From a virus, in the IMG/VR virus record IMGVR_UViG_3300009553_000022, positions 1 through 64,000 of that record: 64,000 nucleotides of DNA; one strand, written 5' to 3'. Under the pieces are notes generated by a model, which had not been told where the DNA came from, did not search any database, and worked only from the letters and a program-made list of their open reading frames with translations. The stretch's first letter is position 1, and each line of letters starts with the position of its first letter. This document shows positions 16,349 to 53,823 of this stretch, in pieces. The position numbers were made by a program, and so were the translations under genes.

Positions 16349-16364
16349 AGCACAAGCTGTACCT
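16349..16364 (-). promoter_or_regulatory. Sigma-54-type promoter a (degenerate)
   Basis: Minus strand AGGTACAGCTTGTGCT: GG and GC separated by 10 bases, with TGC intact but TGGCAC degraded to AGGTAC. It is followed by the family extension GATGTCTGACACTGTAGAA. It begins on the last base of the polymerase stop codon. Predicted +1 is about 16338; the +4 codon is GTA instead of GTG, and the gene uses ATG 16323. Confidence 0.6.
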
Positions 16365-18187
16365 CATTTCATGTACCGATCGGCGAGTTTTCCTTCGACT
16401 CCGAGAGGAAGATCCGGAGCCCACTCCGGCGGGATCGACATGAGCCGCTCCGCCTCCTTCATTGCCTCGCGTGCGCCCTGGATCGGGACCGCACAAATAA
16501 GTTCGTCGTGGCTGTGGAAAATCACCGGGATGCCCGCCCGCTCCACGCGGAGGATACCCTCAGCAGCGACGTCTCGGGCCATGCGCTGCGTCACGTTCTC
16601 CGTCAGCAGGCCGTGCCACAGTGACGGGATCCGCGAGTTGTGGCTCGTGTCTCCCCTGATCTTGAAAGAGCAGTAATTCCCGTCGGCGCATGAGCGCACA
16701 TGAAAATGTTTCAGCGGGATCCCGTTCGGCATCATCATGCACAACTCGCGATCCTTGTCGCGGGCAGCCGCGCGGATGTACTCCTTCATCCGGCCCCAGA
16801 ACGAGGTGATCTTTGGGTTGGCCGCGCGGAACTGATCCACTTGGGCCTGGAGCTGCGCCTCTGTGTAGTTCAACCCCTCCTTCAGCGCGCCGCGGCCGAA
16901 CGCCCCGGTGCCGCCGGCATATCCACCTGACAAAACGTGAACTTTACACACTTTGCGAAGCCCGTTGTTCTCTTCCTTCAGGACACCGCCGCCCCAGGCC
17001 AGCGCGTAGCGCGCATAAGCCTCGTAAATTTCCATCCCTTGCCGCATCGCCTGGAGCATGGCCTCATTGCCGGCGAGCCAGTGCAGGCACCGCGGCTCAA
17101 TCTGCGAGTAGTCGATCAGAGCGAACAGGCAGCCAGGCGGCGGAATCAAGTACCTCCGCATGTCGATCCCCGCGTCACCCTCGAAATCACCCCACTCCGC
17201 CATTTCCTCGGCGAATGCGACTGAGCTGTCGAGGTTCTGGACGTTGACGCCTGTGCTGCTCCACCGCTTCGTATGGGGCGCCCCGCAATAGCGGAACTCC
17301 AGGGGGAAAATGCCGTTGTGGACGCACCTTTGCAGGGTCTTGAGTTTCTTCTGCTTTGTGTTCGCCCCGCGGAGCGTCCGCATGTTCTTCACGAGCTTCG
17401 CCAGCTCCGGGTTGGCCGCCATCCAGCGCGCACATGCCTCGTCCCGCTTGTCCAGGGACGCAGGAGCCGCGACGCCGTGCCGCGAGCAGTAGTCCCCGAA
17501 CGCGTCCATACTCAGCGGCTTCCTGTCTTCGTGAACCCACGGCAGGCAGTTAATCGCCTCAAATCGCAGCCGCTCCAGGTGGGTTAAATCCTCTTCGACC
17601 GCGTCTGTGTCAATGTGGACGCCGCGCCGGTTGATCATCCGTGTGTGCGCTGCAACAGCGGCCTCAATCTCCGGCAGTGGCGGCATCTTCTCCAACATCT
17701 GCTTTTCCGTAAGCGAGTCGTTGAGGCAGTAGTCAACGACTCTCTGCTGCTCGCTGTCGGGTAACGAATTGAAGTCGACCCCCTTCATGCGATCCCGGAT
17801 CGTTTTATCGACAGAGGTGCCCAGCAGGGTCTTCGACAGACCGGCAACATTGCTAGGTAACTGCTGGCCGGCCGCCTGATCGAGAAGGCAGTGCCACTCA
17901 TGAACCGTCTTGCCGTAATGCTTCTCGAAAAACGCTTGGTCAAAGTTCGAGTGCGCGGCGACAAACTGGAGGTTGGGATCCTTATACCAGGAGTCGCCCA
18001 ACATCTGCCCCGCTTGTGCCGGTGTGCCGCAGAATTCCAGATCGTCGGAGACGACCGAGACGAGATACGCGTCGACCGCGGCGACGTAGTTCTTCAGTCC
18101 CATTGTGTCGACTGAAATCTCCTTGTCGTACGGCGTCTCGAAATCGACGACCACGCACTTGCGGCCAGCAAATTGGATCGGCTTCAT
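16364..18187 (-). CDS. Family A DNA polymerase with 3'-5' exonuclease
   Basis: 607 aa. Exonuclease motifs are DFET (15-18), NFDQ (81-84) and YCLND (153-157). Polymerase motif A is DYSQIEPR (359-366), with Pro where Leu is usual. Motif B is RKVCKVHVLSGGYAGG (411-426), with a Val-Leu-Ser in place of the common Phe-Gly region. Motif C is HSHDELI (558-564). All catalytic acids are present, so it should be an active replicative polymerase. Its length fits compact phage PolA enzymes that lack the 5' nuclease domain. ATGA overlap with the gene below. Confidence 0.92.
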   Translation of the reverse strand: MKPIQFAGRKCVVVDFETPYDKEISVDTMGLKNYVAAVDAYLVSVVSDDLEFCGTPAQAGQMLGDSWYKDPNLQFVAAHSNFDQAFFEKHYGKTVHEWHCLLDQAAGQQLPSNVAGLSKTLLGTSVDKTIRDRMKGVDFNSLPDSEQQRVVDYCLNDSLTEKQMLEKMPPLPEIEAAVAAHTRMINRRGVHIDTDAVEEDLTHLERLRFEAINCLPWVHEDRKPLSMDAFGDYCSRHGVAAPASLDKRDEACARWMAANPELAKLVKNMRTLRGANTKQKKLKTLQRCVHNGIFPLEFRYCGAPHTKRWSSTGVNVQNLDSSVAFAEEMAEWGDFEGDAGIDMRRYLIPPPGCLFALIDYSQIEPRCLHWLAGNEAMLQAMRQGMEIYEAYARYALAWGGGVLKEENNGLRKVCKVHVLSGGYAGGTGAFGRGALKEGLNYTEAQLQAQVDQFRAANPKITSFWGRMKEYIRAAARDKDRELCMMMPNGIPLKHFHVRSCADGNYCSFKIRGDTSHNSRIPSLWHGLLTENVTQRMARDVAAEGILRVERAGIPVIFHSHDELICAVPIQGAREAMKEAERLMSIPPEWAPDLPLGVEGKLADRYMK

Positions 18188-18561
18188 TCGCGGGGTACGA
18201 GAAGTCCTGCATTCCAGTCACGGCACAGCGTTGCGAGGGTGCCGTATACCGGTACTCCCAAGCTGTCCGCAAAGTTCACTTCTGCGCGTGCGCCAGAAGA
18301 CCGAGCCCAGTCATTCGTCAGAAGCACCGCGTCGCATCGGCGGAGTAACTCAAGATCACCATCAAGCCAAACATCGTCGGGGGCTGCGCCTTGAAAGAAA
18401 CGTGTATTTGTGTGCGGACAAAGGACTGCAAACCCGGCATGCCAGGCTTGAAGGGCCAGCTCCTCAGCGCGGCGTATGTTCTGCTCAATCTCCCAGGCGT
18501 TTGCTCCCCGGAAGGGGCCTGCGACGTAGACAACGAGTTTTCTAACGACGATGTGCGCCAT
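18184..18561 (-). CDS. DUF4406-like / deoxyribosyltransferase-fold protein
   Basis: 125 aa from ATG 18561. The N-terminus (LVVYVAGPFRGANAWEIEQN) has the VAGPxRG motif of DUF4406 and nucleoside 2-deoxyribosyltransferase-fold proteins. WLDGDLELLRRCDAVLL and SSGARAEVNFA fit the rest of the fold. It may act in nucleotide salvage. A long in-frame extension upstream is antisense and shadow sequence from the methylase gene. The gap to that gene is only 2 bases. Confidence 0.75.
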   Translation of the reverse strand: MAHIVVRKLVVYVAGPFRGANAWEIEQNIRRAEELALQAWHAGFAVLCPHTNTRFFQGAAPDDVWLDGDLELLRRCDAVLLTNDWARSSGARAEVNFADSLGVPVYGTLATLCRDWNAGLLVPRE

Positions 18562-18563
18562 AA

Positions 18564-19223
18564 TTAGACGTACGAGATCCCGAGTTGGCGACCAAGGTCG
18601 GTAAGCATGTCGGTCGGTGGAACGGCAGGCGGAGAAAAAGCGGCCCCCGGTTGGGAAGCGGTCGTTTCGCGAGCCGCAGGGGCGGCTGGCGCTGATGGCG
18701 CTGGGGGCCTGAAGATGACAAGCATGGACGGGAATGGGGCGGAGTCCTTGCATCCGCCAAATTTGAGACGGGACCGGATAAATCGGACCTCGGCGTATGG
18801 AAGTATGTAGTCGTGGAAAACCGCTTTGTCGGTGCGTGATGGGAGCAGCATGACAACAGTCGCGCCCTTCTGGGCCTCGGCCCACGCCTTCACGACAAAA
18901 TCATCCTGCCCGGCCTTGTACTTCGTGTTGCAGTGGCCGCGTTGTTTACAACGCTTCTTTTTGCAGTTCGGACTGCACACCGCTTCAGCCTCACTGTACG
19001 GCGGGTTTACCCATACCGTGTTTGGCGCCCACTCCTGCCTGAGTGCGTCATCCTGCTCGGTGAAATACTTCGCGACTTTTGCGTTTTCCGCACTCGCCGC
19101 CGCATCGAGCGTAAATCGAAACTCGGCGTCGAGGGGGAGAAACGTTGTGAGCGGGGTTTCCCAGCTATCGGATCCGCCCGTGTCGGCGGAGGAAAACATC
19201 ACTTTTTTGTCGTGGTCGTTCAT
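18564..19223 (-). CDS. Phage DNA N6-adenine methyltransferase (Dam type)
   Basis: 219 aa. It shows the phage Dam layout: DSWETPLTTFLPLDAEF, FTLDAAAS, then WVNPPYSEAE with the NPPY catalytic motif. A Cys-rich insert (CSPNCKKKRCKQRGHC) may bind zinc. The tail is Pro/Ala-rich. It probably methylates adenine in phage DNA against host restriction or to mark replication state. The ATG overlaps the stop of a six-codon leader reading frame directly behind the sigma-54 site, so translation is probably coupled. Confidence 0.85.
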   Translation of the reverse strand: MNDHDKKVMFSSADTGGSDSWETPLTTFLPLDAEFRFTLDAAASAENAKVAKYFTEQDDALRQEWAPNTVWVNPPYSEAEAVCSPNCKKKRCKQRGHCNTKYKAGQDDFVVKAWAEAQKGATVVMLLPSRTDKAVFHDYILPYAEVRFIRSRLKFGGCKDSAPFPSMLVIFRPPAPSAPAAPAARETTASQPGAAFSPPAVPPTDMLTDLGRQLGISYV

Positions 19224-19240
19224 GGGTTAGCGTGTTTCAC
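19220..19240 (-). CDS. Six-codon leader peptide MKHANP
   Basis: GTG 19240 starts six codons (VKHANP, initiated as Met) and a TGA whose bases overlap the methylase ATG (ATGA). The GTG lies at predicted +4 of sigma-54 promoter b, the same place where other operons of the family begin their first gene. It is either a coupling leader or a relic of the conserved start. Confidence 0.4.
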   Translation of the reverse strand: MKHANP

Positions 19241-19253
19241 AGTGTCAGACAAG

Positions 19254-19269
19254 AGCAAACGATGTGCCA
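19254..19269 (-). promoter_or_regulatory. Sigma-54-type promoter b
   Basis: Minus strand TGGCACATCGTTTGCT, a near-perfect match to the -24/-12 consensus, including TTGC. It is followed by CTTGTCTGACACTGTGAAAC. It sits 3 bases after the stop of the primase-helicase and faces the methylase, DUF4406 and polymerase genes. Predicted +1 is about 19243. Confidence 0.8.
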
Positions 19270-19272
19270 CGT

Positions 19273-21403
19273 TTATCGCTTCAGCAGAATCGACTTGGTG
19301 ATCTTGAAATCCCGCTCCGCGGTGCCCTCGACGTGCTCGATCCCCGAGTTTTCCATGCGGGCCAGGGTCCGGAGCTGGGTCGAGAAGCGACGCATCTGCC
19401 ACTGCTGCACGAGGGGCCGCACCGGCTCACAGCCAATCATCGCGCTGTATAGTGCTGTGGGGGTGCCGGTCCAGACGTCGGTGTTGTCAAAAACTACCGA
19501 CTGGCTGGCGAACAACGCGATCAGCTCGTACAGGTCGCGCGCTCCGCTCTGTTGCTTGCTGAGTTCGAGCAGTGACGGGTCAAAATAGCTTTCAACACCC
19601 GTTCGGCCCCCGATCCAGATCTCCGCGGGCGGGTTGTATTGCAGCAGCCAGCGGGCGAACATCGCCAGCTCCCGCGCGATCGCCGCCTCGGGGTTCTCCG
19701 GCCACTTGCCAGGGAACGCCTGGGCGAGGAAGAACATGAACTTGTCGCGAGTGTTCTCGTTCACTTCCGGCAACACTGCCGCAGAAGCCGCGTCGCAGTT
19801 GAGGGTGCCGAAAACACGGCCGCACCACACGAGCGACGCCTTCTTCGGAACTTCGGATGCCGGCTCTGCTCCGGGTTGACGACAAGCCCCTTCAACCGCT
19901 GGGCTGCAGACGACGCCTCGCGGTCGTTGGACGGAGCGTCCTCGTCGTTCATTGCCAGCAGGGCGCACTCGAAAAGCTCGTCATTGAATGCATCCCGCGC
20001 TGTCAAATGGCCCCAAGGGTTCGCCGACCGATACCCAGCCAGGGGCTTAACGACGTGCAGGCACCACAGCGTTTTGCCGGAGTTGACGGGGCCGGCCAGA
20101 AACAGCGCCTGACCCATTGTCGGCTTGTGGTTCAAAACCGACTCGTAGAAACGCTTGTGCCAGGCCATCGCGTGATGAAACCCAGCGCCGTACAGGCTGT
20201 GGGCTAGGCTCCAGATGAAGGGAAAGTCGCGTTCCGGCACGACAAGCTCGACTTGCGCCGGTTGGACAGGGATTAGATTACAGGTGTTTAGCATCCGCCT
20301 CCCGTCGATCTCGATCATGCCTGGACGTCGACAGACGAACGGCGCGGCGTGCTCGACGCGGTTAAATGTGTTGATGTGGTGCAGGACCCGGTGAGCCTCG
20401 GAGACTGTTTGTCCTTTGACTTTCTGCGTCGACAGCCCGCCACAGGCGAGGTGCAGCAGCGTGCTCTCGCGGTCGTAGTCGCGCCAAACGCCGCCGATGT
20501 TGATGAAGTAAGTTCGCCCGTCCCAGGCGGAATCTGCCGCGAGGTTCCCGAGGCTCCTGACCCGGTTCTCGTCGCACCACTTCGCGCCGAAAAGGGCCTC
20601 CCAGGACATGAACGGGACATTGCCAGTAAAGCACAGCATGCCGTCGGGCTTAATCTGGCAGCCGTTCGGGTTGTCTGCCGTCTCGTCCCAGAAACGCGGG
20701 CCAAGGTTGTTCACCTCGAACGGACCTTGCCAGCGACCGGGCCACTTCTCCGCAACCTTCGCCGCGATGACTTCGAGGGGCAGGTTGTCCGTGCTGCCGG
20801 TGTGCTTCTTTGCGACGCTGGCCACAACGCCAAACAACGTCTTCCAGGCGATCGGGGCATTGCCCAAGGCGCGCCACTCGCCCCGTTCGTCCAGACTTGT
20901 TCCGGCTTGCACGAAGCCTCGTCAAATCCGGCAAACGCTGTCGCCAGCTTAAACTTGTCGACGAACGCTTTAATGACTGCCGCGGCGTGCGCGGAGTTCA
21001 TTACCAGGATCGGGCGCTCGAACAGCCACACGGGCCGGAGCTTGTTGCTGAGCGTGGTTTCCAGAAATGTCGGGCGGAAATCTTCGGGGATCTGCGCGAT
21101 TAACGCGTCAACGTCTGTCTGCACGACGTCGTAATCCAGGGCCAGCCCGTTCATTGAATGGGCCTCGTTGCCGCTGCCTACGCGGAGAGTCGGAATGGCC
21201 CCACGCACCGCGGAATAAATTTGCCACTGAAAATCAGGCTTCGCGGTGAGTTCGCGGCGGTCCCGTTTCGGCATCGCCTTGAGTTCGGCAAGCCGCCCCT
21301 CGCCCGGGTCATACTTCCAGGGCTCGGCGAGTTCGCCGGTCTTGGCGCGGAGGTTCGGGAAACAGACAAAAAGGGGCGGCATGTAAAAGGGGAAAGAGGG
21401 CAT
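19273..21403 (-). CDS. Primase-helicase, split by two apparent -1 frameshifts
   Basis: Three overlapping frames join into one protein of about 700 aa. The first (21403 to about 20895) has PrimPol-like motifs: LALDYDVVQTD and FDEASCKPEQVW. The second (to about 19880) carries the helicase Walker A (AGPVNSGKT) and Walker B-like LLAMNDEDAP. The third (to 19273) carries VWCGRVFGTLNCD and the remainder of a D5/SF3-type ATPase. Both switches are -1, near GGGG (about 20893) and CCC (about 19876, minus-strand sense). A single missing base at each would restore one frame. Either two sequence errors or real frameshifting; the fused product would be the replicative primase-helicase. Confidence 0.75.
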
Positions 21404-21435
21404 CCGTGCCCTTATTTACTCCGGGAAGGAGAGCC

Positions 21436-22372: not shown

Positions 22373-22600
22373 TTAGGATCCGGAGACTTTCTCCGAAATT
22401 GCAGGCGCCGATTTTTCCAAGCGAATCGTCGCGTACTGGATCAGGCCGTCGGCGCGTGTGAGTAAGTTTTCCGCCGAAAGGGTCATCGCCATGATCTCCT
22501 TTGCTTGCTTCTTGGTCGACTTGGCCTCGCGGGCTTGCTCCTTAGCTTCAGCCAGGATCCGCTTTTTCAGCTTCGGATCGCTAGTCTGATTTGCTTTCAC
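22373..22600 (-). CDS. Possible nested gene: C-terminal 75 residues of the DUF2800 frame
   Basis: GTG 22600 lies at predicted +4 of sigma-54 promoter c and is in frame with the DUF2800 gene. It would yield a separate 75-aa Lys/Ala-rich helical protein (MKANQTSDPKLKKR...). The DUF2800 part upstream is already about 382 aa, close to what such proteins usually need. The segment may thus be produced both as a tail of the nuclease and as an independent product. Confidence 0.4.
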   Translation of the reverse strand: MKANQTSDPKLKKRILAEAKEQAREAKSTKKQAKEIMAMTLSAENLLTRADGLIQYATIRLEKSAPAISEKVSGS

Positions 22601-23746
22601 GGTGCCAGACTGTAGCAGACCCTGTGCCACGTTGTTTGACATGGCGACGTAGCTGTCCGCGAAAACTGCTTCCAACTTGGTTAGCGCGATGTCGCAGCAG
22701 CCCAAAACTTGATCGGGGGTTAAGACGTCTTTCAGCGCCTCAGCGACAAGCGCCGGCTCGTGAACTGACCGATCCCGCTTCCTGGCGCACGCCTTGATGA
22801 CAACCTCCTGGCCAGGGGCGACCTCCACGCGAAGCACGCCGTTAGGTTCCGCCTGGGCTAACTCTAACGCTCTCGCCTTTATCCCACTCTTGCTCTCTTC
22901 CAGGAGAGTTTCGAGGCGGTCGAGGATGTAACACGCCTTGGCGACGTCTTCCGGCGTGTGAATTTCTATCGCGCTGAACGTCGACGGCATCGGCAGCGGC
23001 TCAGCCTTCTGAACTGCGACCGCTGCGGTCTGAACGAGTGCGGGACAACTCCCGGCCCGCGAACAAAAATCGCAATACGGATTGACGTTGAGCGTCGGGT
23101 TTGGTTGCTGCGCGCTGCGAATGACCCCTTGAACGGCTGTAAATATATCATATAACTCCTCCCGGCGAAAGCTGGCCGCGGTCGTTTTGTGCAGTTTCGG
23201 CTGCACGAACAGCACACCCAGCTTGCCGAGCTTCGGGAATTTGTGGAACGATCCGAGCGCGTACGCCTTGCCCTGGTAGTTGACTGCGGCAGGTGGTACG
23301 GGTATCCAACCGAACTTATGATCAATCAAGACGCCCGTCGTTCCATCCTTTAAAATGATCAAAACGTCGAGGTGCCCGGCTGTCAGCTCTTGTCCCGTCG
23401 GGTCCGGAACTGTCACCCTGATTTCGTTGTGGATCTCCTCCCAACCTGCCGCGATCCAACGGTCCATTTCCTTGCATGAGAATGCGAGGAGCGTGTAGTC
23501 CTCGTCACTGATCGCGAACTCCCCCGACTGACTTAATTCGTCCAACGCTGTCAGTGTACGCGTGTGCCGCCCCTCCTTCACACGATCGACCAAAACGTCG
23601 GCGAGTTCATGCAAACGGGTACCTTCTCGGGACGCCTCGGACTCGCCGTCGTTAGGCAAGTAGCCGGGACAAGCTGCATAGGCGTTGAGTTTCGACGGCC
23701 CGTAGCGGTGATGCGTTCGGGCGGCGTGGTTAGGTTGTTCGTTCAT
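22373..23746 (-). CDS. DUF2800-type PD-(D/E)XK nuclease with Fe-S cysteines
   Basis: 457 aa. An N-terminal Cys (CPGYLPN, C26) and a C-terminal CxxCxxxxxC (C225, C228, C234) form the Cas4/AddB-like cluster. The nuclease core is GHLDVLI (D127) and LIDHKFG (D142, K144), preceded by RLHELAD. It likely resects DNA ends in replication or recombination together with the ssDNA-binding-like protein downstream. Residues after ~382 form a Lys-rich helical extension that reads through sigma-54 promoter c. It begins 17 bases inside the preceding gene. Confidence 0.8.
   Translation of the reverse strand: MNEQPNHAARTHHRYGPSKLNAYAACPGYLPNDGESEASREGTRLHELADVLVDRVKEGRHTRTLTALDELSQSGEFAISDEDYTLLAFSCKEMDRWIAAGWEEIHNEIRVTVPDPTGQELTAGHLDVLIILKDGTTGVLIDHKFGWIPVPPAAVNYQGKAYALGSFHKFPKLGKLGVLFVQPKLHKTTAASFRREELYDIFTAVQGVIRSAQQPNPTLNVNPYCDFCSRAGSCPALVQTAAVAVQKAEPLPMPSTFSAIEIHTPEDVAKACYILDRLETLLEESKSGIKARALELAQAEPNGVLRVEVAPGQEVVIKACARKRDRSVHEPALVAEALKDVLTPDQVLGCCDIALTKLEAVFADSYVAMSNNVAQGLLQSGTVKANQTSDPKLKKRILAEAKEQAREAKSTKKQAKEIMAMTLSAENLLTRADGLIQYATIRLEKSAPAISEKVSGS
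22614..22629 (-). promoter_or_regulatory. Sigma-54-type promoter c (inside a coding region)
   Basis: Minus strand TGGCACAGGGTCTGCT, followed by ACAGTCTGGCACCGTGAAAG. It has the same spacing and +4 GTG as the other members, but lies inside the DUF2800 frame. It would drive the nested frame, the ssDNA-binding-like gene and the primase-helicase. Predicted +1 is about 22603. Confidence 0.7.
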
Positions 23747-25468: not shown

Positions 25469-25668
25469 CCGACCTCCTCGGCTCGGATTTCCTTGGCTCC
25501 GATGTCCAGCAGCTCCTGCGCACTGGAGAAAATCGCGGAAGGCAGATAGTCGTCCAGACGCGCTTTTCGGATCTCAACGACCGCTTCTCCGTAAACCTGT
25601 CGGACCCGGAAGAAGTCGGGAAGGCCGTACTCAGATTCGGGGCCGAGCTTGAAATATCTCAGACTCAT
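25465..25668 (-). CDS. Small protein ahead of the helicase
   Basis: 67 aa from ATG 25668, which overlaps the stop of a 24-aa membrane peptide (ATGA). The sequence MSLRYFKLGPESEYGLPDFF leads into a helical part ending ..AKEIRAEEVG. It overlaps the helicase start by 4 bases. Function unknown. Confidence 0.6.
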   Translation of the reverse strand: MSLRYFKLGPESEYGLPDFFRVRQVYGEAVVEIRKARLDDYLPSAIFSSAQELLDIGAKEIRAEEVG

Positions 25669-25739
25669 GTCAGCGCAACAAAGAGCAGCATGCCGAGGCC
25701 GATCGCAGTGGCGGCCAACCACAGACGGAAAAATTTCAT
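25665..25739 (-). CDS. 24-residue membrane peptide
   Basis: ATG 25739 to TGA 25665. Apart from the first few residues it is one hydrophobic helix (MKFFRLWLAATAIGLGMLLF...). It is tied to both neighbours by ATGA overlaps, the junction type used across this operon, which supports it being translated. Role unknown. Confidence 0.5.
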   Translation of the reverse strand: MKFFRLWLAATAIGLGMLLFVALT

Positions 25740-26476
25740 TCGCCGAACACAGAGCCGCGGGGTTTGATGCCGACGAATCCGGCGACGGACGCGTCGAGGG
25801 TCTTGCGCCCTCCATTGTGTACCTCTGTCGCCGCCTCGATCCGCTCCATGACGAAGCGATCCAGGAGGGCCAGGAAATCGGCGCCGACGCGTTTACCCCG
25901 GGCCTTGGCACGGGCTTTAACTTTTGACACGACTAGGAACTGTGGTTTTCTCATGCTATTTTTGGGTTTATTTTTGCGACTGCGGCGCGTGTTCTGCGCC
26001 TGCTCACAAAGTGGGATCCAGCAGCAGTTATCTGGGCAGTAGTTTCCGTTGACCTCCCTGCGCTCTATGGTGAGGTCTTCCCGGAAACCGGACCCACGAG
26101 CCCACTGAGCGAAAGGAATGAATTCCTCCCACTCAGGGCAAATCGTGATCCCCCGGCCTCCGTAGCTGTGGAAATTAGGGTCCTTGGGGTTGCGGCAACG
26201 CTGCCGCATGTTGGTCCAAACCTTGTGCAGGGGCGTCTTTGTCTCGCCGTGAACGCGGAACCGGGTCGCGTTAAGCCGGCCTTTTTCTCGGGCGGCGCAG
26301 CCGCAAGACGTCGTATTGCCCGCGCGGAGGTTGTCGAACCTCGCCACAAATTCGGTTCCGCAGTCGCACCGCACTTGCCGGTAACGCGTGGGGAACTGCT
26401 GCCCGTGCGTGGCGCCGGGGCCTAGAATGACAACCCGCCCGTAACGCTCGGGATCCGATGTTTGTCTAGGTCTCAC
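25736..26476 (-). CDS. HNH/AP2-like endonuclease-type protein
   Basis: 246 aa from GTG 26476. An N-terminal zinc-binding segment (RCDCGTEFVARFDNLR then TSCGC) precedes a core with HKVWTNMRQRCRNP, GGRGITICPEW and NGNYCPDNCCWIPL, typical of phage HNH/AP2 homing-type proteins. The tail is Lys/Arg-rich. The GTG is at predicted +4 of sigma-54 promoter d. Earlier ATG/TTG codons in frame (reading ARRLLMSDAV) lie upstream of the predicted +1 and are translated promoter sequence. It heads the operon down to the DUF2800 gene. Confidence 0.75.
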   Translation of the reverse strand: MRPRQTSDPERYGRVVILGPGATHGQQFPTRYRQVRCDCGTEFVARFDNLRAGNTTSCGCAAREKGRLNATRFRVHGETKTPLHKVWTNMRQRCRNPKDPNFHSYGGRGITICPEWEEFIPFAQWARGSGFREDLTIERREVNGNYCPDNCCWIPLCEQAQNTRRSRKNKPKNSMRKPQFLVVSKVKARAKARGKRVGADFLALLDRFVMERIEAATEVHNGGRKTLDASVAGFVGIKPRGSVFGE

Positions 26477-26489: not shown

Positions 26490-26505
26490 AGCAGACGCCG
26501 TGCCA
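26490..26505 (-). promoter_or_regulatory. Sigma-54-type promoter d
   Basis: Minus strand TGGCACGGCGTCTGCT, identical over 16 bases to promoter f on the other strand. It is followed by CATGTCTGACGCTGTGAGAC. Predicted +1 is about 26479, with GTG at +4. TGTCAGAC and CTGACAGTG motifs lie 120-150 bases upstream and could be activator or repressor sites. Confidence 0.85.
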
Positions 26506-27001: not shown

Positions 27002-28143
27002 GCAGCCGATGGGAAACAACCAAAGTGCCGGGCATCCGCCGCGACAAAGCGACTGGGATGCTTTACCTGAACAAGAGCGTCAACGGTCGAGTCTACGGCG
27101 AGAGCCTGAAGACGACGGACCTCGCGGTCGCGAAGCAGAAGTTTTTCGCACGCCTCGCGGAGCTGGCAAGCGAGCCCCGCCCGATAGCCCCGAAGCCCGA
27201 GCGGTATTCCCTGGGTGAGATCCTCGACACTTACGCCGCCCGGCTCGACGCGGAGCACGGCTCCCTCGACCCGAAAACCATCAAGCGGAAGAAGTGGACG
27301 CTGTCGACGATCGTCTCGACCTGGGGCGAAGTGCCGGTCCTCAAGACCCGCGGCGTCGGTAGCTTCCGCAGTCTCCCCGCGAAGCGCGTCAGCTATGACG
27401 ACCTCCTGGCGTGGCGGAAGCATTTCATCGACCCGAAGGGCGGCAACTTCAAGCCGTCGTATTTCAACCTCGTCCGCGATGTCCTCGAAGAGGTGTTTGA
27501 CCTGGCTGTCGAGTTCGGGCAGATCCGCGAGAATCCCGTTTGTCGTCTCAGCGTCGCAGCGGTGCCCCGCGCGCATTACGTCCTGCCGACTGGTGAACAG
27601 TGGGCGGCGATGCTGGCCAAGATCGACACGGCGACCGAGGTCGGTCAGAACTGCCGCGACTTGCTCGAAGGGCTGTCGTTGACGGGACTGCGGATCAGCG
27701 AGGCGTATGCTCTGCGCGTCGAGATGGTTGACCTGGAAGCCCGCGAGGTTCGCTTGCCGGCCGCGATTGTCAAAGGCCGTAACGGGCGAAGGAACGGACG
27801 GACGATCGATCTTATTCCCGAAGCTCACGCACTCATGACGCGGCTTGTCGCGACCGCTGGCCCGGACGGGCTGATCTTCAAAGCCGAGGGACGACGCACA
27901 TTGACGCGCATCTGCAAGGAAGCTGGCTGGACAGCGAAATTTACTCTCCACTCGTGCCGACATTTCTTCGCGACGCGGATGCTTGAATCGGGCGTGCCGG
28001 TACAGACCGTTGCGGAATGGATGGGACATCAGGACGGCGGCACGCTGCTACTGAAGACCTACACGCATCTTTGCCGGCGGCATGGGAAGGCGGCTGCGGC
28101 GAAGGTTACGATTTTCCCGGGCGAGAAGAAGGACGCAGTCTAA
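26998..28143 (+). CDS. Tyrosine-family integrase
   Basis: 381 aa from ATG 26998. The N-terminal arm/core-binding part (to ~residue 180) includes NKSVNGRVYGESL. The catalytic domain carries TGLRISEA (Arg), VKGRNGRRNG (Lys region), LHSCRHFFATRM (His-x-x-Arg), MGHQDG (His) and TYTHL (Tyr nucleophile). All expected catalytic residues are present. It should insert and excise the phage at an attachment site, so the phage is temperate. The attP is expected nearby but not identified. Confidence 0.92.
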   Translation: MSSRWETTKVPGIRRDKATGMLYLNKSVNGRVYGESLKTTDLAVAKQKFFARLAELASEPRPIAPKPERYSLGEILDTYAARLDAEHGSLDPKTIKRKKWTLSTIVSTWGEVPVLKTRGVGSFRSLPAKRVSYDDLLAWRKHFIDPKGGNFKPSYFNLVRDVLEEVFDLAVEFGQIRENPVCRLSVAAVPRAHYVLPTGEQWAAMLAKIDTATEVGQNCRDLLEGLSLTGLRISEAYALRVEMVDLEAREVRLPAAIVKGRNGRRNGRTIDLIPEAHALMTRLVATAGPDGLIFKAEGRRTLTRICKEAGWTAKFTLHSCRHFFATRMLESGVPVQTVAEWMGHQDGGTLLLKTYTHLCRRHGKAAAAKVTIFPGEKKDAV

Positions 28144-28561: not shown

Positions 28562-28898
28562 ATTTCTGAACGTCCTTCTTCCGCACTAAATACGGCCGGA
28601 ATGGCTTCAACGAAGCGGTGCAGACTAGGCACTCCTCCCGTCGGCCTGTGGCTGAACCCTGTTCGTATTCTGGCGGCCCATCAAGAGAGCGGTGCTCCCG
28701 GCCCCTTCGGAATTTGTAATTGTCGACGATCGCCATTCTCAAGCCGATCACGTACCCGGTGCCGGACTCGCACAGCGGCGTCGGCGAAGCCTGCCGGACA
28801 CACCCCTGGCCGTGAACGTAGTCACTCAAAAAGCGTTCGGAGCAAGTCATGCCGTAGGCCGGCCCGTGTTCGATTTTCTGGCCAATGAAATAGTTCAA
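28539..28898 (-). CDS. Unknown protein downstream of the sigma-54 activator
   Basis: 119 aa (MNYFIGQKIEHGPAYG...). Cys-containing motifs (MTCSERFLSDYVHGQGC and EECLVC) could bind a metal. It starts in an ATGA overlap with the activator gene, so it is co-translated with it. No family recognised. Confidence 0.6.
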   Translation of the reverse strand: MNYFIGQKIEHGPAYGMTCSERFLSDYVHGQGCVRQASPTPLCESGTGYVIGLRMAIVDNYKFRRGREHRSLDGPPEYEQGSATGRREECLVCTASLKPFRPYLVRKKDVQKYADITAS

Positions 28899-29782
28899 GC
28901 TACCTCCTTCAACGTAATCCCAAGAGCTGCCAGCTTCGCACGGCCCCCATCCCGGTTGACGCCCAGGGCCTCACTAAACTGCGTGACGTTCCCAGCCTCA
29001 GCCCAGACAGCCCGCAAGGCGGCCTCGTCGAGGCATGCGTCCGGTATGGTTCCCAGGAGCAGCAACCGCGACAGCCAGCCGAACAGCTCCCGACAGTTCC
29101 CTGTCCAGGGCCGCGTCTGCAGGTCGAGCAATATCTCCGGCGAGAGCACGGGAACCGGAAGCTTATGCCTCTTCGCTTCGGCTGCGAGGAACTGGGCCGC
29201 GAGGGCTCCCAGGTCTTCCGGCCGTTCCCGCAATGGTGGAATCTCCAGGGTGAAGGCGGCGAGGCGATGATAGAGGTCGGCGCGGAGCTTGCCGGACTTG
29301 ATTGTGGCGGCTGGGTCGACATTCATCGCCGCGACGATCCGCACGTCGACAAATTCGTCTCGGTCGCTGCCCAGGGAGCGCACCCGACTATCCTGGAGGG
29401 TCCGCAAGAGCTTCGACTGCGCCTGAGCCGGCATCTCCGACAGCTCGTCGAGGAACAGCGTCCCGCCAGATGCCGCGCGGAACAGGCCCAGCCGCGACGT
29501 TACAGAGCCCGTATACGCGCCCCGCTGCGCGCCGAACAGCTCGCTTTCAATTAAATCGGCAGGAAGCGCCGCACAGTTCAGCGAAACCTTCGGCCCCGCG
29601 GCGCGGGGGCTATTGCCGTGGATCAGGTTCGCGAAGACCTCCTTGCCCGTCCCCGTCTCACCCAGGACGAGAACAGGGACATCAAATTTAGCGAGATGCA
29701 CAGCCTTACGGGCAAGTGCCTGAATGGCCGGACTAGCAAAGATAGGGACCAAGCGAGTTTCATAAAGGTGCCGTCCTGGCAA
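28895..29782 (-). CDS. Minimal sigma-54 activator (bEBP, PspF-like)
   Basis: 295 aa: an AAA+ domain and a DNA-binding domain with no N-terminal receiver, GAF or PAS domain. Walker A is GETGTGKE (41-48). The sigma-54 contact loop is GAYTGS (88-93) where GAFTGA is canonical; the essential Thr is kept. Walker B is GGTLFLDE (106-113), the arginine-finger region LRADLYHRL (166-174), and sensor II NCREL (229-233). The C-terminus is a Fis-type helix-turn-helix (NVTQFSEALGVNRD, 265-278). Such proteins hydrolyse ATP to open promoters bound by RpoN polymerase. The TTG start at 29782 is uncertain. The gene is second in an operon with a sigma-70-type promoter, while at least eight sigma-54-type sites lie elsewhere in the window. 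Confidence 0.92.
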   Translation of the reverse strand: MPGRHLYETRLVPIFASPAIQALARKAVHLAKFDVPVLVLGETGTGKEVFANLIHGNSPRAAGPKVSLNCAALPADLIESELFGAQRGAYTGSVTSRLGLFRAASGGTLFLDELSEMPAQAQSKLLRTLQDSRVRSLGSDRDEFVDVRIVAAMNVDPAATIKSGKLRADLYHRLAAFTLEIPPLRERPEDLGALAAQFLAAEAKRHKLPVPVLSPEILLDLQTRPWTGNCRELFGWLSRLLLLGTIPDACLDEAALRAVWAEAGNVTQFSEALGVNRDGGRAKLAALGITLKEVA

Positions 29783-29963: not shown

Positions 29964-29991
29964 ACGGTAGCACCATGCACTACGTTGTCAA
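29964..29991 (-). promoter_or_regulatory. Sigma-70-type promoter of the activator operon
   Basis: Minus strand TTGACA (29991-29986), 16-bp spacer, TACCGT (29969-29964). The -10 is weak. Predicted +1 is within a few bases of ATG 29956. The -35 box overlaps the operator-like CGTTGTCAAACG (29983-29994). This would let the activator be made before any sigma-54 transcription. Confidence 0.5.
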
Positions 29992-30014
29992 ACGCACGAA
30001 CACAAAACAATACA

Positions 30015-30050: not shown

Positions 30051-30353
30051 ATGAAAAGCAGCGTACGACAAAAGCCTGACCAAAAAATAGATCGGACGAG
30101 ACCCGAGCAGTTCGCGGTGCGAATCACGGACAACCTGCGGTCGCGTGTCGAGGCCGTCGCCGCAGCCTTATCCAACGAAGCGCAAACGACTACCATATCC
30201 GACGTTGCCCGACGCTGTCTAGTCGGGCATTTGCCGGTGCTGGAGCGTGAACTCGGGCTTGTTGAAAACCGGCCGCAGTCGGCGGAAACGGATACAACGC
30301 AGTGGGTCGCGGAAGCGAAAAAGCGCGCAACTAAAGCCAATGCCAAAGTCTAA
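30051..30353 (+). CDS. Ribbon-helix-helix DNA-binding protein, candidate repressor
   Basis: 100 aa. A basic N-terminal arm (~20 aa) leads to a strand EQFAVRITDN and two helices (NLRSRVEAVAAALSNEAQ and TTISDVARRCLVGHLP) in the Arc/CopG/MetJ arrangement. Such dimers bind short, often tandem, sequences with about one-turn spacing. It is transcribed away from the activator operon, and the shared intergenic region holds TGTCAAAC-type sites also found at most phage promoters. This makes it the best candidate for the regulator that reads those sites; that link is inference. Confidence 0.7.
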   Translation: MKSSVRQKPDQKIDRTRPEQFAVRITDNLRSRVEAVAAALSNEAQTTTISDVARRCLVGHLPVLERELGLVENRPQSAETDTTQWVAEAKKRATKANAKV

Positions 30354-30775: not shown

Positions 30776-30820
30776 ATTGCCTTGCGCTGCACAGCTTTGT
30801 ATCATCTTGTCAAACACAGT

Positions 30821-30849
30821 TTGACAACGTCGCACGCATGAACTATTCT
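30821..30849 (+). promoter_or_regulatory. Sigma-70-type promoter of the DUF932 gene
   Basis: TTGACA (30821-30826), 17 bp, TATTCT (30844-30849). The -35 lies in a perfect inverted repeat TTGTCAAAC-ACA-GTTTGACAA (30807-30827), the best single palindrome of the operator family. A purine-rich AGGAAAA stretch lies before ATG 30873, so this message does have a leader of about 16 bases. Confidence 0.7.
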
Positions 30850-30872: not shown

Positions 30873-31688
30873 ATGCAAACACTGAACGTCAAGAGCCGAA
30901 CAATTCTCAGCAATGAAGACCTCAATCGCATCGCTCCCAGCATCTTCGCGGAGCACGCGGCTTCCCACCTCACCGAACGTTACGCGTTCTTCCCCACGTC
31001 CCGCGTCGTCGACGCTATGCGCGGCGCAGGATGGAACCCCGTAGCCGCCCAAGAGATGCGCGCCCGTAAGGAAGAACGCCGCGGCTTCCAGACCCACGTC
31101 GTCCGCTTCCAGAAGGCCATTCACACGCTCGCGGTGGGCGACAGCGTCTTCGAGCTGATCCTGAAAAACGCGCATGATGGCGGCTGCTCCTGGCAGATGC
31201 ACGCCGGTCTCTACCGCGCGACCTGTGCCAACGGCATGGTCGTCTCCGAAGGCGTCTCGCAGCAGGCCAACATCCGGCACAGCGGGCGGGAAATCGACGA
31301 GATCATCAGCAACAGCTTCAGCATCGCTGAACGCCTGCCCCTCATGGCCGAGCACGTTGGCAAATTCAGCAGCCGACTCCTCACCGACACCGAAGCTCGC
31401 ACCTTCGCGGCGGGTGCCCTGGCCCTTCGCTACGAGGCCAACGAGGCGCCGATCAAGGCCGAGGCCCTCTTGACCGCCCGCCGGGCTGGCGACGTCGGAA
31501 ACGACCTCTGGCGCACGTTCAACCGCGTTCAGGAAAACCTGATGCGCGGCAAGCAACGCGGGTACAAGATTACGGCCGCCAGCCGGGGCTTTCTGCGCAA
31601 GGTCAGCACCCGCCCGGTCACCGCGATCAACGAAGATCTGCGTATCAATAAGGAACTTTGGAGCCTCGCCGAGAGCTTCTCGGCATAA
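30873..31688 (+). CDS. DUF932 phage/plasmid protein
   Basis: 271 aa. The motif order matches the DUF932 family found on phages and plasmids: RYAFFPTSRVVDAMRGAGW, VRFQKAIHTLAVGDSVFEL, HAGLYRATCANGMVV. It is related in name only to antirestriction-type loci; the biochemical function is unknown. It is a single-gene transcription unit, with its own promoter and a strong terminator directly after it, so it is probably made early and in quantity. Confidence 0.85.
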   Translation: MQTLNVKSRTILSNEDLNRIAPSIFAEHAASHLTERYAFFPTSRVVDAMRGAGWNPVAAQEMRARKEERRGFQTHVVRFQKAIHTLAVGDSVFELILKNAHDGGCSWQMHAGLYRATCANGMVVSEGVSQQANIRHSGREIDEIISNSFSIAERLPLMAEHVGKFSSRLLTDTEARTFAAGALALRYEANEAPIKAEALLTARRAGDVGNDLWRTFNRVQENLMRGKQRGYKITAASRGFLRKVSTRPVTAINEDLRINKELWSLAESFSA

Positions 31689-31758
31689 TTTACTCACGGG
31701 CGGCTGGCCCTGTGCAATCCTCCCAATTCAGCCCGCCCCAAATAGCCCACCTCAAAAC

Positions 31759-31790
31759 AAGGCCCTGCACCCACAGGGCCTTTTCTTTTT
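31759..31790 (+). terminator. Rho-independent terminator after DUF932
   Basis: A perfect 9-bp stem AAGGCCCTG/CAGGGCCTT with a 6-base loop (CACCCA) is followed by TTCTTTTT. It is the clearest intrinsic terminator in the window. It insulates DUF932 from the next promoter, which starts about 20 bases later. Confidence 0.9.
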
Positions 31791-31812
31791 GTCAAATTGT
31801 GTCTGACAGAGT

Positions 31813-31841
31813 TTGACAAAGTAACCTAAGCGGATTAGGAT
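31813..31841 (+). promoter_or_regulatory. Sigma-70-type promoter of the PAPS-reductase/methylase operon
   Basis: TTGACA (31813-31818), 17 bp, TAGGAT (31836-31841). The predicted +1 is 31848, the A of the ATG: a leaderless message. Three operator-like units lie in a row: TTTGTCAAA (31788-31796), TGTCTGACA (31800-31808) and TTTGACAAA (31812-31820). Confidence 0.75.
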
Positions 31842-31847
31842 ACCGGC

Positions 31848-32648
31848 ATGGGAACGACAACCGAAAAACTCCTCCGCTGGGCCGACTACATCGTGATCAA
31901 CACCTCGGCGGGCAAAGACTCGCAGGCGATGATGGACTACGTTTGCCGCCTCGCATTTTCAGCCGGCATGCTGCACAAGGTCGTCGCCGTCCACGCCGAC
32001 CTGGGCCGCGTCGAATGGAAGGGCACCCGCGAGCTGGCCGAGGAGCACGCCAAGTACTACGGCATTCCGTTCCACGTCGTCCGTCGCGAGAAGGGCGACC
32101 TCCTGGAGCAGGTCGAGGCGCGCGGCATGTGGCCGGACAGCGGCAACCGCTACTGCACCAGCGACCAGAAGCGCGACCAAGTGGCCAAGTTCCACACGCA
32201 GCTTTCCCTCAAACCGGTTGTCCCCGGGCGCCGCGTCCGCATCCTTAACTGCATGGGCTTCCGCAAAGACGAGAGCCCGGCCCGCGCGAAACGCCGCCCT
32301 GTCCAGGCGGACAGCCGCACGACAAACGGCAAGAAGGCCGTGCTGAACTGGCTCCCGATCCACACCTGGAGCGTCGATCTCGTCTGGAGCACGATCCGCG
32401 CCTCCGGCGTCCCCCATCATTACGCCTACGACAAGGGCATGCCCAGGCTGTCCTGCTGCTTCTGCATCTTCGCCCCTAAGGACGCCTTGGTCATCGCAGG
32501 CCGGGAGAACCCGGAGCTTCTCGCGGAGTACGTGCGGGTCGAGGCGAAGATCGGCCACAGCTTCCGAAACAAATTCAAGATCGCGGAGGTCCAGGAGGCG
32601 ATCGCCGCAGGCTACCAACCCAAGAACGTTCAAAACTGGACAATGTAA
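31848..32648 (+). CDS. PAPS-reductase / PP-loop family protein
   Basis: 266 aa. The PP-loop is NTSAGKDSQAMM near residue 20, followed by VAVHADLGRVEWKGT and RYCTSDQKRDQ, the usual PAPS-reductase-family order. A late CCFCIF motif adds paired cysteines. Members activate or reduce sulfur-containing adenylates, and related DndC proteins serve DNA phosphorothioation. No other Dnd gene is seen. It is coupled by TAATG to a C5 methylase, so a joint role in DNA modification or restriction evasion is plausible but unproven. Confidence 0.85.
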   Translation: MGTTTEKLLRWADYIVINTSAGKDSQAMMDYVCRLAFSAGMLHKVVAVHADLGRVEWKGTRELAEEHAKYYGIPFHVVRREKGDLLEQVEARGMWPDSGNRYCTSDQKRDQVAKFHTQLSLKPVVPGRRVRILNCMGFRKDESPARAKRRPVQADSRTTNGKKAVLNWLPIHTWSVDLVWSTIRASGVPHHYAYDKGMPRLSCCFCIFAPKDALVIAGRENPELLAEYVRVEAKIGHSFRNKFKIAEVQEAIAAGYQPKNVQNWTM

Positions 32649-33538: not shown

Positions 33539-33577
33539 GCCTTTGTGAGACACGGTAAAATAATGTCAGACAACGTT

Positions 33578-33606
33578 TGACAACGTAACCGAACCGGCTT
33601 AGGATA
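33578..33606 (+). promoter_or_regulatory. Sigma-70-type promoter of the long early operon
   Basis: TTGACA (33578-33583), 17 bp, TAGGAT (33601-33606), nearly the same as the promoter at 31813. The predicted +1 is about 33613 and the ATG is at 33615. TGTCAGACA (33565-33573) and GTTTGACAA (33576-33584) form the operator-like pair. Confidence 0.75.
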
Positions 33607-40996: not shown

Positions 40997-41356
40997 TCAG
41001 GGGACGATGATGGGAGAAGACGCCTGGGCCTTCGGCGCGCGGCGGCGGCGCTGGAGAATGGCCTCGCACCACGCAGCCGCGACAGCAGCCACCTGGACGA
41101 GTTCTGTATACAGCTGGCGGTCTCGCTCCTCCTCGGTCGTCAGGACGCCGTTGCGGTAGTCACACAGCGCACGGGCGACTTCCCCGTTCTCCTCCGCGAG
41201 GACAGTGTAGCGCGCCTCGTCCAAGACGTTGGGGGCCGCACAGGTCCAGGCAAATTTGCCTGACTTGCATAGAACCTCCTGGCGCTCGCGCTCCGCGATG
41301 ATGTCGTTCAGGACGGCTAGGCGAGCCGCGGCTCCGAGTTTGTCAGTGTCAGTCAC
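40997..41356 (-). CDS. MazG-like nucleotide pyrophosphohydrolase-type protein
   Basis: 119 aa from GTG 41356, at predicted +4 of sigma-54 promoter e. The helix TVLAEENGEVARALCDYR carries a MazG-like EExGEV motif, and the rest is helical. Such proteins hydrolyse NTPs or lower alarmone levels during infection. The apparent start further upstream (AHRLLMSGT) is translated promoter sequence. It leads the operon that runs to 39049. Confidence 0.65.
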   Translation of the reverse strand: MTDTDKLGAAARLAVLNDIIAERERQEVLCKSGKFAWTCAAPNVLDEARYTVLAEENGEVARALCDYRNGVLTTEEERDRQLYTELVQVAAVAAAWCEAILQRRRRAPKAQASSPIIVP

Positions 41357-41369: not shown

Positions 41370-41385
41370 AGCAGCCGGTGTGCCA
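41370..41385 (-). promoter_or_regulatory. Sigma-54-type promoter e
   Basis: Minus strand TGGCACACCGGCTGCT preceded by T, followed by CATGTCTGGGACTGTGACTG. Predicted +1 is about 41359 and GTG at +4 starts the MazG-like gene. Just upstream is TGTCTGACAG-CGTCAAACGT, an operator-like pair abutting the -24 box. Confidence 0.8.
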
Positions 41386-43408: not shown

Positions 43409-43424
43409 TGGCACGGCGTCTGCT
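43409..43424 (+). promoter_or_regulatory. Sigma-54-type promoter f
   Basis: TGGCACGGCGTCTGCT, identical to promoter d. It is followed by CATGTCTGGAGGTGTGAGC and preceded by TGTCTGACACTG. Predicted +1 is about 43435, with GTG at +4 (43438). Confidence 0.85.
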
Positions 43425-43437: not shown

Positions 43438-43644
43438 GTGAGCAAGCAACTAACACGAAGCAGCGTCAAAGCAATGAAGCCGGCCGAGCAGGCCGCGGCG
43501 TACTTCGCTGACAACACGGCGATGTATGTAACCAACGATCGGCCCGGCCCCAGCCTGCGAGCGCAAGAAGCGTTCTGGAACGACTGGCAGGAGGCCCTGG
43601 ACACCTGGAAGGCGACGCTGCCTCGCGACCGTTTCTCCGTATGA
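43438..43644 (+). CDS. First gene of the operon behind promoter f, unknown
   Basis: 68 aa from GTG 43438 (VSKQLTRSSVKAMKPAEQAA, first residue Met). ATG 43474 is an alternative start. Helical, with WNDWQEALDTWKATLP. The in-frame TTG/ATG codons further upstream encode the promoter itself (ARRLLMSGG) and precede predicted +1. ATGA overlap with the next gene. Function unknown. Confidence 0.6.
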   Translation: MSKQLTRSSVKAMKPAEQAAAYFADNTAMYVTNDRPGPSLRAQEAFWNDWQEALDTWKATLPRDRFSV

Positions 43645-45323: not shown

Positions 45324-45730
45324 AAGAGTACGTCGCCGGATTTTTGTTCTCCACCGACCGCAGCCGGGTCGTTCTGATCTGCAAAGAGAAACCCGCCTGG
45401 CAGGCCGGCAAGCTGAACGGAGTCGGCGGGAAGATCGAGCGCGACGAGCTGCCGCATCAGGCCATGCGCCGCGAGTTCTTCGAGGAAACCGGCGCGAAGA
45501 CTTGCGTCTCGGACTGGCACCACTTCTGCAGGTACCAGGGTGAGGATTGTGTCGTGCATTTCTTCCGTGCCTTTAAAGATCTCGAAGTCGAGTCAGTGAC
45601 GAGCGAGCTTGTGCGCTGGTACTACGTCCGTGAACTGAACACATACCCCACGCTGCCTAACCTCTCCTGGCTGGTGCCGTTTGCCCTCGACGAAACGCTG
45701 TCGCATTCTGAGGTCTACGAGGTGGCTTAA
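45320..45730 (+). CDS. Nudix hydrolase
   Basis: 136 aa from TTG 45320 (TTGA overlap). The Nudix box is complete: GGKIERDELPHQAMRREF followed by FEETG. It would hydrolyse a nucleoside diphosphate derivative, for example an oxidised dNTP or an RNA cap. The 5' part of a longer frame is Arg-rich shadow sequence. An exact-spacing TGGCAC-type match at 45515 inside it is treated as chance. Confidence 0.85.
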   Translation: MKEYVAGFLFSTDRSRVVLICKEKPAWQAGKLNGVGGKIERDELPHQAMRREFFEETGAKTCVSDWHHFCRYQGEDCVVHFFRAFKDLEVESVTSELVRWYYVRELNTYPTLPNLSWLVPFALDETLSHSEVYEVA

Positions 45731-47208: not shown

Positions 47209-47224
47209 TGGCACGGTAGCTGCT
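47209..47224 (+). promoter_or_regulatory. Sigma-54-type promoter g
   Basis: TGGCACGGTAGCTGCT, followed by CTTGTCTGACACTGTGAAAC. It is preceded by TGTCTGACAT-TGACTGAAAC, an operator-like tandem. Predicted +1 is about 47235, with GTG at +4. It heads the operon with the protease, FkbM methylase, terminase and probably the portal. Confidence 0.85.
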
Positions 47225-47237: not shown

Positions 47238-47465
47238 GTGAAACGTCTACTGACACAAGTTCGCATCTGGTTGATGCGGTATCACGCGGAGTTCCTCCTG
47301 CAACGCGTTCTCGCCGAAATCGATCGGATCGATGCGATCCAATACGCGAACATTCGTCGCGATCGCGAAATCATTCGTCTTTCCCAAGAAGCCGACAAAC
47401 TCGAAGCCTCCCTTGACGCGGAGAGCCGACGCCGCAAACGCGCCTTCTTGGAACTCCCGGACTAG
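47238..47465 (+). CDS. Coiled-coil protein behind promoter g
   Basis: 75 aa from GTG 47238 (VKRLLTQVRIWLMRYHAEFL, first residue Met). A basic helix is followed by a charged coiled coil (REIIRLSQEADKLEASLDAE). An apparent upstream TTG start (SDTV) precedes predicted +1. Function unknown. Confidence 0.6.
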   Translation: MKRLLTQVRIWLMRYHAEFLLQRVLAEIDRIDAIQYANIRRDREIIRLSQEADKLEASLDAESRRRKRAFLELPD

Positions 47466-50917: not shown

Positions 50918-50944
50918 AGGCGGTCCCAGTTCGGAGGTTCTCTT

Positions 50945-51382: not shown

Positions 51383-51385
51383 TCC

Positions 51386-51679: not shown

Positions 51680-51695
51680 GTAACGCCTCCCACCT

Positions 51696-53792: not shown

Positions 53793-53807
53793 GGCGTTTG
53801 ACACGTT

Positions 53808-53823
53808 GGCACGGAGTCTGCTC
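53808..53823 (+). promoter_or_regulatory. Sigma-54-type promoter h
   Basis: TGGCACGGAGTCTGCT preceded by T, followed by CCTGTCTAACGCTGTGAAAC. It lies 15 bases after the portal stop. Predicted +1 is about 53834, with GTG at +4. It faces the scaffold, capsid and tail genes, and perhaps beyond the right edge. Confidence 0.85.

Follow-up and report, generated by a model that had tools for sequence, protein, structure and literature searches.

What switches on the replication and virion genes of the virus in IMG/VR record IMGVR_UViG_3300009553_000022? Phages are known to time late expression by making a new polymerase or sigma factor, by antitermination, or by activating sigma-70-type promoters. 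A sequence-only reading of the window analysed here (bases 1-64000 of the 66,629-base virus record, labelled G000) had proposed another arrangement, in which host RNA polymerase carrying sigma-54 (RpoN) serves eight -24/-12 promoters and is opened by an activator that the phage itself encodes. Our analysis supports such a host-RpoN regulon through conservation of the sites in a relative, a complete activator gene, the lack of a rival polymerase or sigma factor, and a second phage family of the same design. We consider it very probable that the lytic programme proceeds in two stages, both served by host RNA polymerase, from sigma-70-type promoters early and from activator-opened sigma-54 promoters late.

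The genes of G000 include those for terminase, portal and major capsid proteins, for a DNA polymerase and for a tyrosine integrase (27025..28143, plus strand), which makes it a tailed and probably temperate phage. The earlier description as temperate holds for G000 through this integrase gene, and that support covers G000 only. Among 50,697 named phage records, the capsid protein matches 7 at no more than 28.3% identity (Vibrio, Roseobacter, Caulobacter and other phages) and the terminase matches 6 at no more than 26.2%. The source does not state the completeness of the record, and the gene calls used here are simple in-house ones. No transfer RNA (tRNA) gene was found in the window.

The -24/-12 sites and their conservation

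All eight sites are present, at coordinates that agree within one base with those first given. Read directly from the sequence, their core is TGGCAC-N6-TGCT in a GG-N10-GC frame; the frame had been described correctly, and the N7 gap given with it was a miscount. Seven sites are near-perfect and one is degenerate. On the minus strand, the putative promoter TGGCACATCGTTTGCT (19254..19269) precedes the genes for a Dam-type methylase (18564-19223) and the DNA polymerase (16364-18187), TGGCACAGGGTCTGCT (22614..22629) lies within the open reading frame (ORF) 22373-23746, TGGCACGGCGTCTGCT (26490..26505) precedes an HNH endonuclease gene (25736-26476) and helicase/exonuclease genes, and TGGCACACCGGCTGCT (41370..41385) precedes a leftward block starting at 41356. 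On the plus strand, TGGCACGGCGTCTGCT recurs at 43409..43424 before gene 43438-43644, TGGCACGGTAGCTGCT (47209..47224) stands before 47238-47465 and the terminase/portal block, and TGGCACGGAGTCTGCT (53807..53822) before 53836-54057 and the major capsid block. The degenerate site, AGGTACAGCTTGTGCT (16349..16364, minus strand), is followed by the exonuclease gene 15043-16323, which has its ATG at 16323; it scores only 9.6 bits in the matrix scan described below and was recognised through its downstream extension, TGTCTGACACTGT, which is intact.

As the sequence-only reading had stated, the sites face the replication blocks, the 39-41 kb block and the late blocks: all eight point into an ORF on their own strand, and behind them lie the exonuclease, methylase and polymerase, helicase/exonuclease, 39-41 kb, terminase/portal and capsid genes. 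With corrected start codons, seven of them fall outside coding sequence, apart from one base of the site at 16364, which is the last base of the polymerase stop codon. The exception is the site at 22629. The ORF around it has exonuclease homology over residues 3-323, and the site, together with an in-frame GTG at 22600, falls in the 3' third of that ORF behind the homology; we read this arrangement as a fused or nested gene.

The sites were scored with a weight matrix that represents the general sigma-54 consensus, not one fitted to G000, and that was scanned over the whole record. The seven good sites are the seven top matches, all at 14.9 bits or more, and a coding match at 45515 follows with 14.3 bits. 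Chance matches can be as strong: of 20 order-1 simulations, 6 had a best score of at least 14.9 bits (highest 16.2), so one site alone proves little, whereas seven would carry the case. The strict pattern TGG[CT]A[CT]N6TGC[TA], which includes the ordinary coding match at 45515 and excludes the degenerate site at 16364, gives 8 matches in G000 against 0 for the reversed pattern; shuffled sequences average 0.49, and 0 of 100 shuffles reach 8. Four partial records that are kin of G000 by capsid or terminase (L120-L123), examined as controls, hold 0, 1, 0 and 0 strict sites. A single site in another record (L019) was set aside as probably due to chance, with no shared protein in the 9.7 kb examined there.

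An independent IMG/VR relative of 35,160 bases (G001) was found by its terminase. It shares 86% identity with G000 in terminase and portal and 96% in capsid, with 73.6% nucleotide identity over the largest aligned block. In the regions that G001 covers, four of four sites are conserved: 2009-, 4188+, 6761+ and 14394+ match the places of 41385-, 43409+, 47209+ and 53807+. The GG-N10-GC frame has been kept between the two phages while the spacers diverged. A fifth G001 site, at 25923+, precedes a gene that by eye looks HNH-like, and over all 13 sites (8 in G000, 5 in G001) GG and GC are found at constant spacing in 13 and the full TGGCAC in 11.

The genes behind the matched sites are less constant. 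The first gene behind 47209 (47238..47465, plus strand) is homologous to G001 6790-7020 (42% over 76 columns, from residue 1), and the one behind 53807 (53836..54057, plus strand) to G001 14423-14650 (59% over 71 amino acids). The first genes behind 41385 (40997..41356, minus strand) and 43409 (43438..43644, plus strand) have no blastp match to the genes behind the G001 counterparts, and at these two pairs the promoter therefore seems to have been kept while the gene was exchanged. A tRNA-Phe call of odd length (91 nucleotides (nt), G001 25664-25754) lies beside the HNH-like gene 25923-26387 with its own sigma-54 promoter, and this is perhaps a mobile gene fitted to the regulon. Three further loci (L003, L004 and L016) proved to be one contig of the same phage as G000 (99.99% over 13,097 bases) and give no independent evidence.

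The phage activator and a second phage family

The sequence-only reading had also reported a complete PspF-like activator, and this is confirmed. The gene at 28895..29782 (minus strand), which sits in an early-type operon of the phage itself, encodes a PHROG 7998 protein that matches Sigma54_activat (PF00158) with 199 bits and has Walker A and B motifs (GETGTGKE, GGTLFLDE), a GAYTGS loop and an AAA lid. It aligns with solved NtrC-family proteins, FleQ, NifA, PspF and ZraR. The AAA+ domain starts at residue 16 of 295, as in PspF-type proteins without an N-terminal regulatory domain, and because no sensory domain precedes it, expression of the protein should equal activation. A Fis-like helix-turn-helix (HTH), GNVTQFSEALGVNRDGGRAKLAALGI, was seen by eye at the C-terminus; no Pfam HTH family matches there at E 0.001.

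What the sequence-only reading had missed here is that the design is not unique. An activator scan of IMG/VR, of which the best 80 of 217 loci were used, led to 13 activator records chosen for inspection. The records G003-G007 carry 4-8 sites against 0-1 for the reversed pattern, and G008-G015 carry 0-4 against 0-1, with none in G013-G015. G003, G004, G006 and G007 form one phage family with terminase, polymerase and further genes in common, in most cases at identities of about 23-47%. Each of the four has one to three protein matches to G000, and the activator is the only match common to all.

This second family was then collected by terminase alone, using the terminases of three members, which removes the selection for an activator. 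The search gave 52 loci in 24 clusters at 90% terminase identity, and 50 of the records were analysed. The activator is present in 37 of the 50, including 34 of the 35 records of at least 25 kb; 12 of the 13 records that miss it are fragments below 23 kb, and the other is 36.7 kb long. The pattern TGGCAYN6TGCW occurs in 44 of the 50 records, 181 times against 8 for its reversed form, and without the four seed records the counts are 158 against 7, with the activator in 33 of 46. In many loci the sites recur upstream of the terminase gene and again about 4.4-6.3 kb after its start, a position that in G003, G004, G006 and G007 falls just before the presumed capsid gene, as judged by gene order. 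A co-directional site follows within 500 bp of the AAA+ domain in 27 of the 32 activator records with listed sites. No tyrosine integrase was detected in the 28 members tested, and the four family activators that were read end without an HTH. Nothing among the 50,697 named phage records matches the G004 proteins that occupy the capsid and portal positions.

These counts bear on a different reading, in which the sites are real sigma-54 promoters whose main activator in vivo is one of the host, answering a nitrogen or stress signal, while the phage protein has some different role. Activators of a host can be promiscuous in opening sigma-54 promoters, and activators do exist in virus records that lack sites. 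We nevertheless hold this to be very unlikely, given a complete activator within an early-type operon of the phage and, in the second family, its presence in almost every long record, mostly just ahead of a site.

Several other activator records were considered. G005 (L111-L113), an unrelated 48.7-kb record that shares only the activator and has a sigma-70 factor of its own, was not counted: 8 of its 10 pattern matches are inside called genes. Its 10 matches compare with a shuffle mean of 0.44 and several read TTGCAGG, so that a third lineage or another motif is possible. Loci L099-L102, in which activator and sigma-54 site have the same orientation, resemble host loci by eye and were left out. 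Records L025 (203 kb) and L026 (57 kb) encode activators without a regulatory domain and, by eye, with a Fis-type HTH; these are nearest to that of G000 in the tree, and their records hold no strict site. An independent origin of the two phage activators is no more than possible: that of G000 stands apart from the second family in a quick tree, and a single clade is not rejected (approximately unbiased test, p-AU 0.277). In the gut phage DP SC_2 (L018) a GAFTGA protein of PHROG 7998 is encoded at 19770-20684 beside what by eye is a primase-like gene, in 38.7 kb without a strict sigma-54 site.

A number of results weigh against a phage-run sigma-54 regulon. Across the 80 activator loci the matrix finds 62 matches where 40.4 are expected, with the excess in a few, and most activator records show no regulon. 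The sparse sites of G008-G015, like the PHROG 7998 protein of DP SC_2 with no strict site around it, indicate that an activator alone does not imply the system, and many records of the second family are near-copies of one another. The search of related phages that had been suggested for sites plus activator succeeded in G001 for the sites and failed for the activator, that record being a fragment without the early region. In the G000 protein itself, the loop reads GAYTGS instead of GAFTGA, and the recognition helix, VNRDGGRAKL, is unusual. No distal enhancer that its HTH could use was seen, conservation being confined to about -46 to +10, and no systematic motif search was made. Finally, two genome-collection scans with terminase or capsid patterns, whose reach is close relatives only, found no prophage copies.

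Start codons, candidate operator boxes and early promoters

The sites had been said to share a downstream extension, and they do; what had been missed is that in six of the eight this extension contains the GTG start codon of the next gene. Counting both phages, 10 of 13 sites (6 of 8 in G000, 4 of 5 in G001) have a GTG precisely 15 nt downstream of the -12 C, and each of these codons begins an ORF that is 68 codons long or longer. In G000 these are the HNH endonuclease gene behind 26505 (25736..26476, minus strand), a 75-codon ORF behind 22629 (22373..22600, minus strand) that shares its reading frame with the C-terminal end of ORF 22373-23746, and the first genes behind 41385, 43409, 47209 and 53807. 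At the remaining sites an ATG lies 12 nt further down (16364) or 17 nt further down (19269, where the GTG opens six codons only), and G001 25923 offers a GTG 2 nt upstream of the usual place or a TTG 1 nt downstream of it. Transcription from sigma-54 promoters usually starts about 12 nt after the GC, and with the GTG fixed in place the leaders would be 0-3 nt long. The messenger RNAs (mRNAs) behind the sites thus look leaderless or near-leaderless.

Leaders of normal length would result if the fixed GTG were a coincidence of the box sequence and the true starts lay further down, as with the ATG codons at two of the eight window sites; GTG is, moreover, a weaker start for a leaderless mRNA. This seems unlikely to us when the GTG keeps its place in 10 of 13 sites and opens a sizeable ORF every time, and when the homology between 47238 and G001 6790 begins at residue 1. 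Matches to the anti-Shine-Dalgarno sequence are also little commoner upstream of genes (28 of 102) than at random places (21 of 102), with a gene caller that gave such matches preference.

Conservation of the elements is nearly continuous from -26 to +9, as it is in T7-type promoters. One could therefore suppose that these 36-bp elements are promoters of some factor other than sigma-54, such as a single-subunit RNA polymerase, whose promoters run through +1, and that the likeness to -24/-12 sites is accidental. The conservation at +4 to +6 is that of the start codon, however, and GG and GC are invariant where the block that separates the two elements is variable. The unrelated activator phages bear the -24/-12 part without the G000 extension, and a sigma-54 activator is present. 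No T7-type RNA polymerase (PF00940) was found in 16 records, with T7 itself as a working control, and T7-like promoters were rejected on that ground. A phage sigma factor was likewise rejected as the driver, since neither G000 nor the G001 fragment shows a sigma-70 region 2, and G000 shows no sigma-54 DNA-binding domain. We regard an accidental likeness as highly improbable. The proposal that the regulon stands in place of a T7-like polymerase or a phage sigma factor agrees with G000 having neither; antiterminators were not searched for.

The other half of the extension, TGTCTGAC, belongs to a family of boxes, TGTCWRAC, that the sequence-only reading did not connect with the early promoters. 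Boxes are intergenic in 24 of 34 cases, in a genome that is 8% intergenic (the enrichment p-value is inflated, near-palindromic boxes being counted on both strands). At the sigma-54 cores they occupy about -8 to +1 and, in several cases, a stretch between -46 and -30 too. In line with the claim that early genes use TTGACA promoters, TTGACA-N17 sequences are found at 30821, 31813, 33577 and 30015, and several early genes are preceded by TTGACA-N17-TAGGAT or similar. Box dyads with an N3 gap lie over or beside the -35 elements of the early promoter sequences at 30808, 31790 and 33564. The first (30808..30849, plus strand; TTGACA-N17-TATTCT) has the dyad TGTCAAAC-N3-GTTTGACA over its -35 element, the second (31790..31841, plus strand; TTGACA-N17-TAGGAT) has three boxes and an ATG 6 nt after its -10 element, and the third (33564..33605, plus strand; TTGACA-N17-TAGGAT) has a box dyad. 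The probable promoter of the activator operon, which runs leftwards from 29956, is TTGACA-N16-TACCGT at 29964..29993 (minus strand), with the box GTTTGACA at 29986 over its -35 element.

Because boxes are found both at early -35 elements and at sigma-54 cores, they are most likely an operator shared by the two stages and bound by one phage regulator. One candidate is a 100-amino-acid protein whose gene (30051..30353, plus strand; ATG start read from the sequence) is divergent from the activator operon. A ribbon-helix-helix fold, which had been expected for it, was not confirmed: no Pfam family scores above cut-off, and a single-sequence structure model (predicted local distance difference test, pLDDT, 64.9) contains no strand. 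The boxes might instead be sites of the activator itself, which would turn genes on from beside the sigma-54 promoters and turn early genes off from over the -35 elements. Boxes at both promoter classes, the apparent Fis-like HTH and the failure to identify a repressor fold among the small proteins tested all fit this. We think it possible and rather doubtful, since the boxes of the -8 to +1 stretch, and those found from -46 to -30 at several sites, overlap or abut the place of the polymerase, unlike the usual distal enhancers, and the four activators of the second family lack a terminal HTH, yet their phages keep the promoters.

Further features were noted alongside. At 11320-11946 (plus strand) there are direct boxes, TGTCTGAC-N2-TGTCAAAC, and by eye a TTGTCA-N17-TAAGTT promoter ending 5 nt before an ATG at 11368, which opens a lipoprotein-like ORF overlapping a called minus-strand gene. 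The early genes at 30873-33538 (plus strand) encode DUF932, a PAPS-reductase-like protein and a C5 cytosine methylase, a set that suggests DNA modification or anti-defence. A late protein of 2424 amino acids (1606-8880, plus strand), perhaps an injected virion protein, has a PBECR5 domain (phage Barnase-EndoU-ColicinE5/D-RelE-like nuclease) with its best stretch at residues 1825-1983.

A proposed scheme and its relation to known systems

A sigma-54 holoenzyme cannot open DNA without an ATP-driven activator. In the scheme that we propose, sigma-70-type promoters (TTGACA-N17-TAGGAT), once freed from the box regulator, would express the early genes including the activator operon. The presence of the activator alone would then remodel host sigma-54 holoenzyme at the eight promoters, with ATP hydrolysis driving the opening of the polymerase, and the genes for replication, packaging and the capsid would be expressed, for the most part from leaderless or near-leaderless mRNAs with GTG 15 nt after the -12 C. 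In the lysogen, one phage regulator at the TGTCWRAC boxes would hold both stages off. In the second family the HTH-less activator may work from solution, as some bacterial activators have been reported to do.

Taken more broadly, the data make it likely that a widespread, so far undescribed class of tailed phages exists, in which middle and late genes are served by host sigma-54 polymerase and each phage supplies the unregulated AAA+ activator that opens it, in several cases an activator without a DNA-binding domain. Such phages would need RpoN for their production. The class would span no fewer than two unrelated lineages, the first carrying an integrase and the second with no detectable tyrosine integrase, and G005 may be a third. 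In the G000 lineage the promoter would run directly into the start codon of a leaderless mRNA, and one box regulator would silence both stages. If this is true, sigma-54 use is a further solution to late timing, tightly off and then on with a single protein, and rpoN is a determinant of phage production. It would also suggest a function for PHROG 7998 and similar phage proteins listed as unknown, and biochemistry would gain activators that are by nature unregulated and HTH-less, along with the promoters that belong to them. An activator gene together with repeated -24/-12 sites makes a simple genomic test for virus collections.

No report of a phage sigma-54 regulon was found among the matches listed in open-licence papers, an absence that is weak evidence. 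The nearest of these matches concern host sigma-54 (PMC4591121) or prophage genes acting on a host RpoN-dependent operon (PMC9879122). In the temperate phage GIL01 a phage LexA homologue activates late genes, so that, as in G000, late activation belongs to a phage regulator; the title and opening abstract lines of that report (PMC6182141) name no sigma-54. PHROG 7998, of unknown function in its library, matches the activators of both G000 and DP SC_2, the latter in a segment without a strict site.

The timed switch from early to late genes is one that G000 would share with phages using T7 RNA polymerase, lambda N and Q or the T4 and SPO1 sigma factors; it differs in that no T7-type polymerase, sigma-70 region 2 or sigma-54 DNA-binding domain was found in G000. 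With the bacterial sigma-54 regulons (PspF and psp, NtrC and gln, FleQ and flagella) it has in common the -24/-12 promoters, the GG-N10-GC frame, the AAA+ activator and a GAFTGA-type loop. It differs from them in being carried by a phage and covering replication and virion genes, in a start codon fixed about 4 nt from the expected transcription start, and in showing no distal enhancer. Mu C, P2 Ogr and phi29 p4 are likewise phage proteins that redirect host RNA polymerase to late promoters; those act on the sigma-70-type polymerase, whereas the G000 activator would act on the sigma-54 form, for which opening needs ATP.

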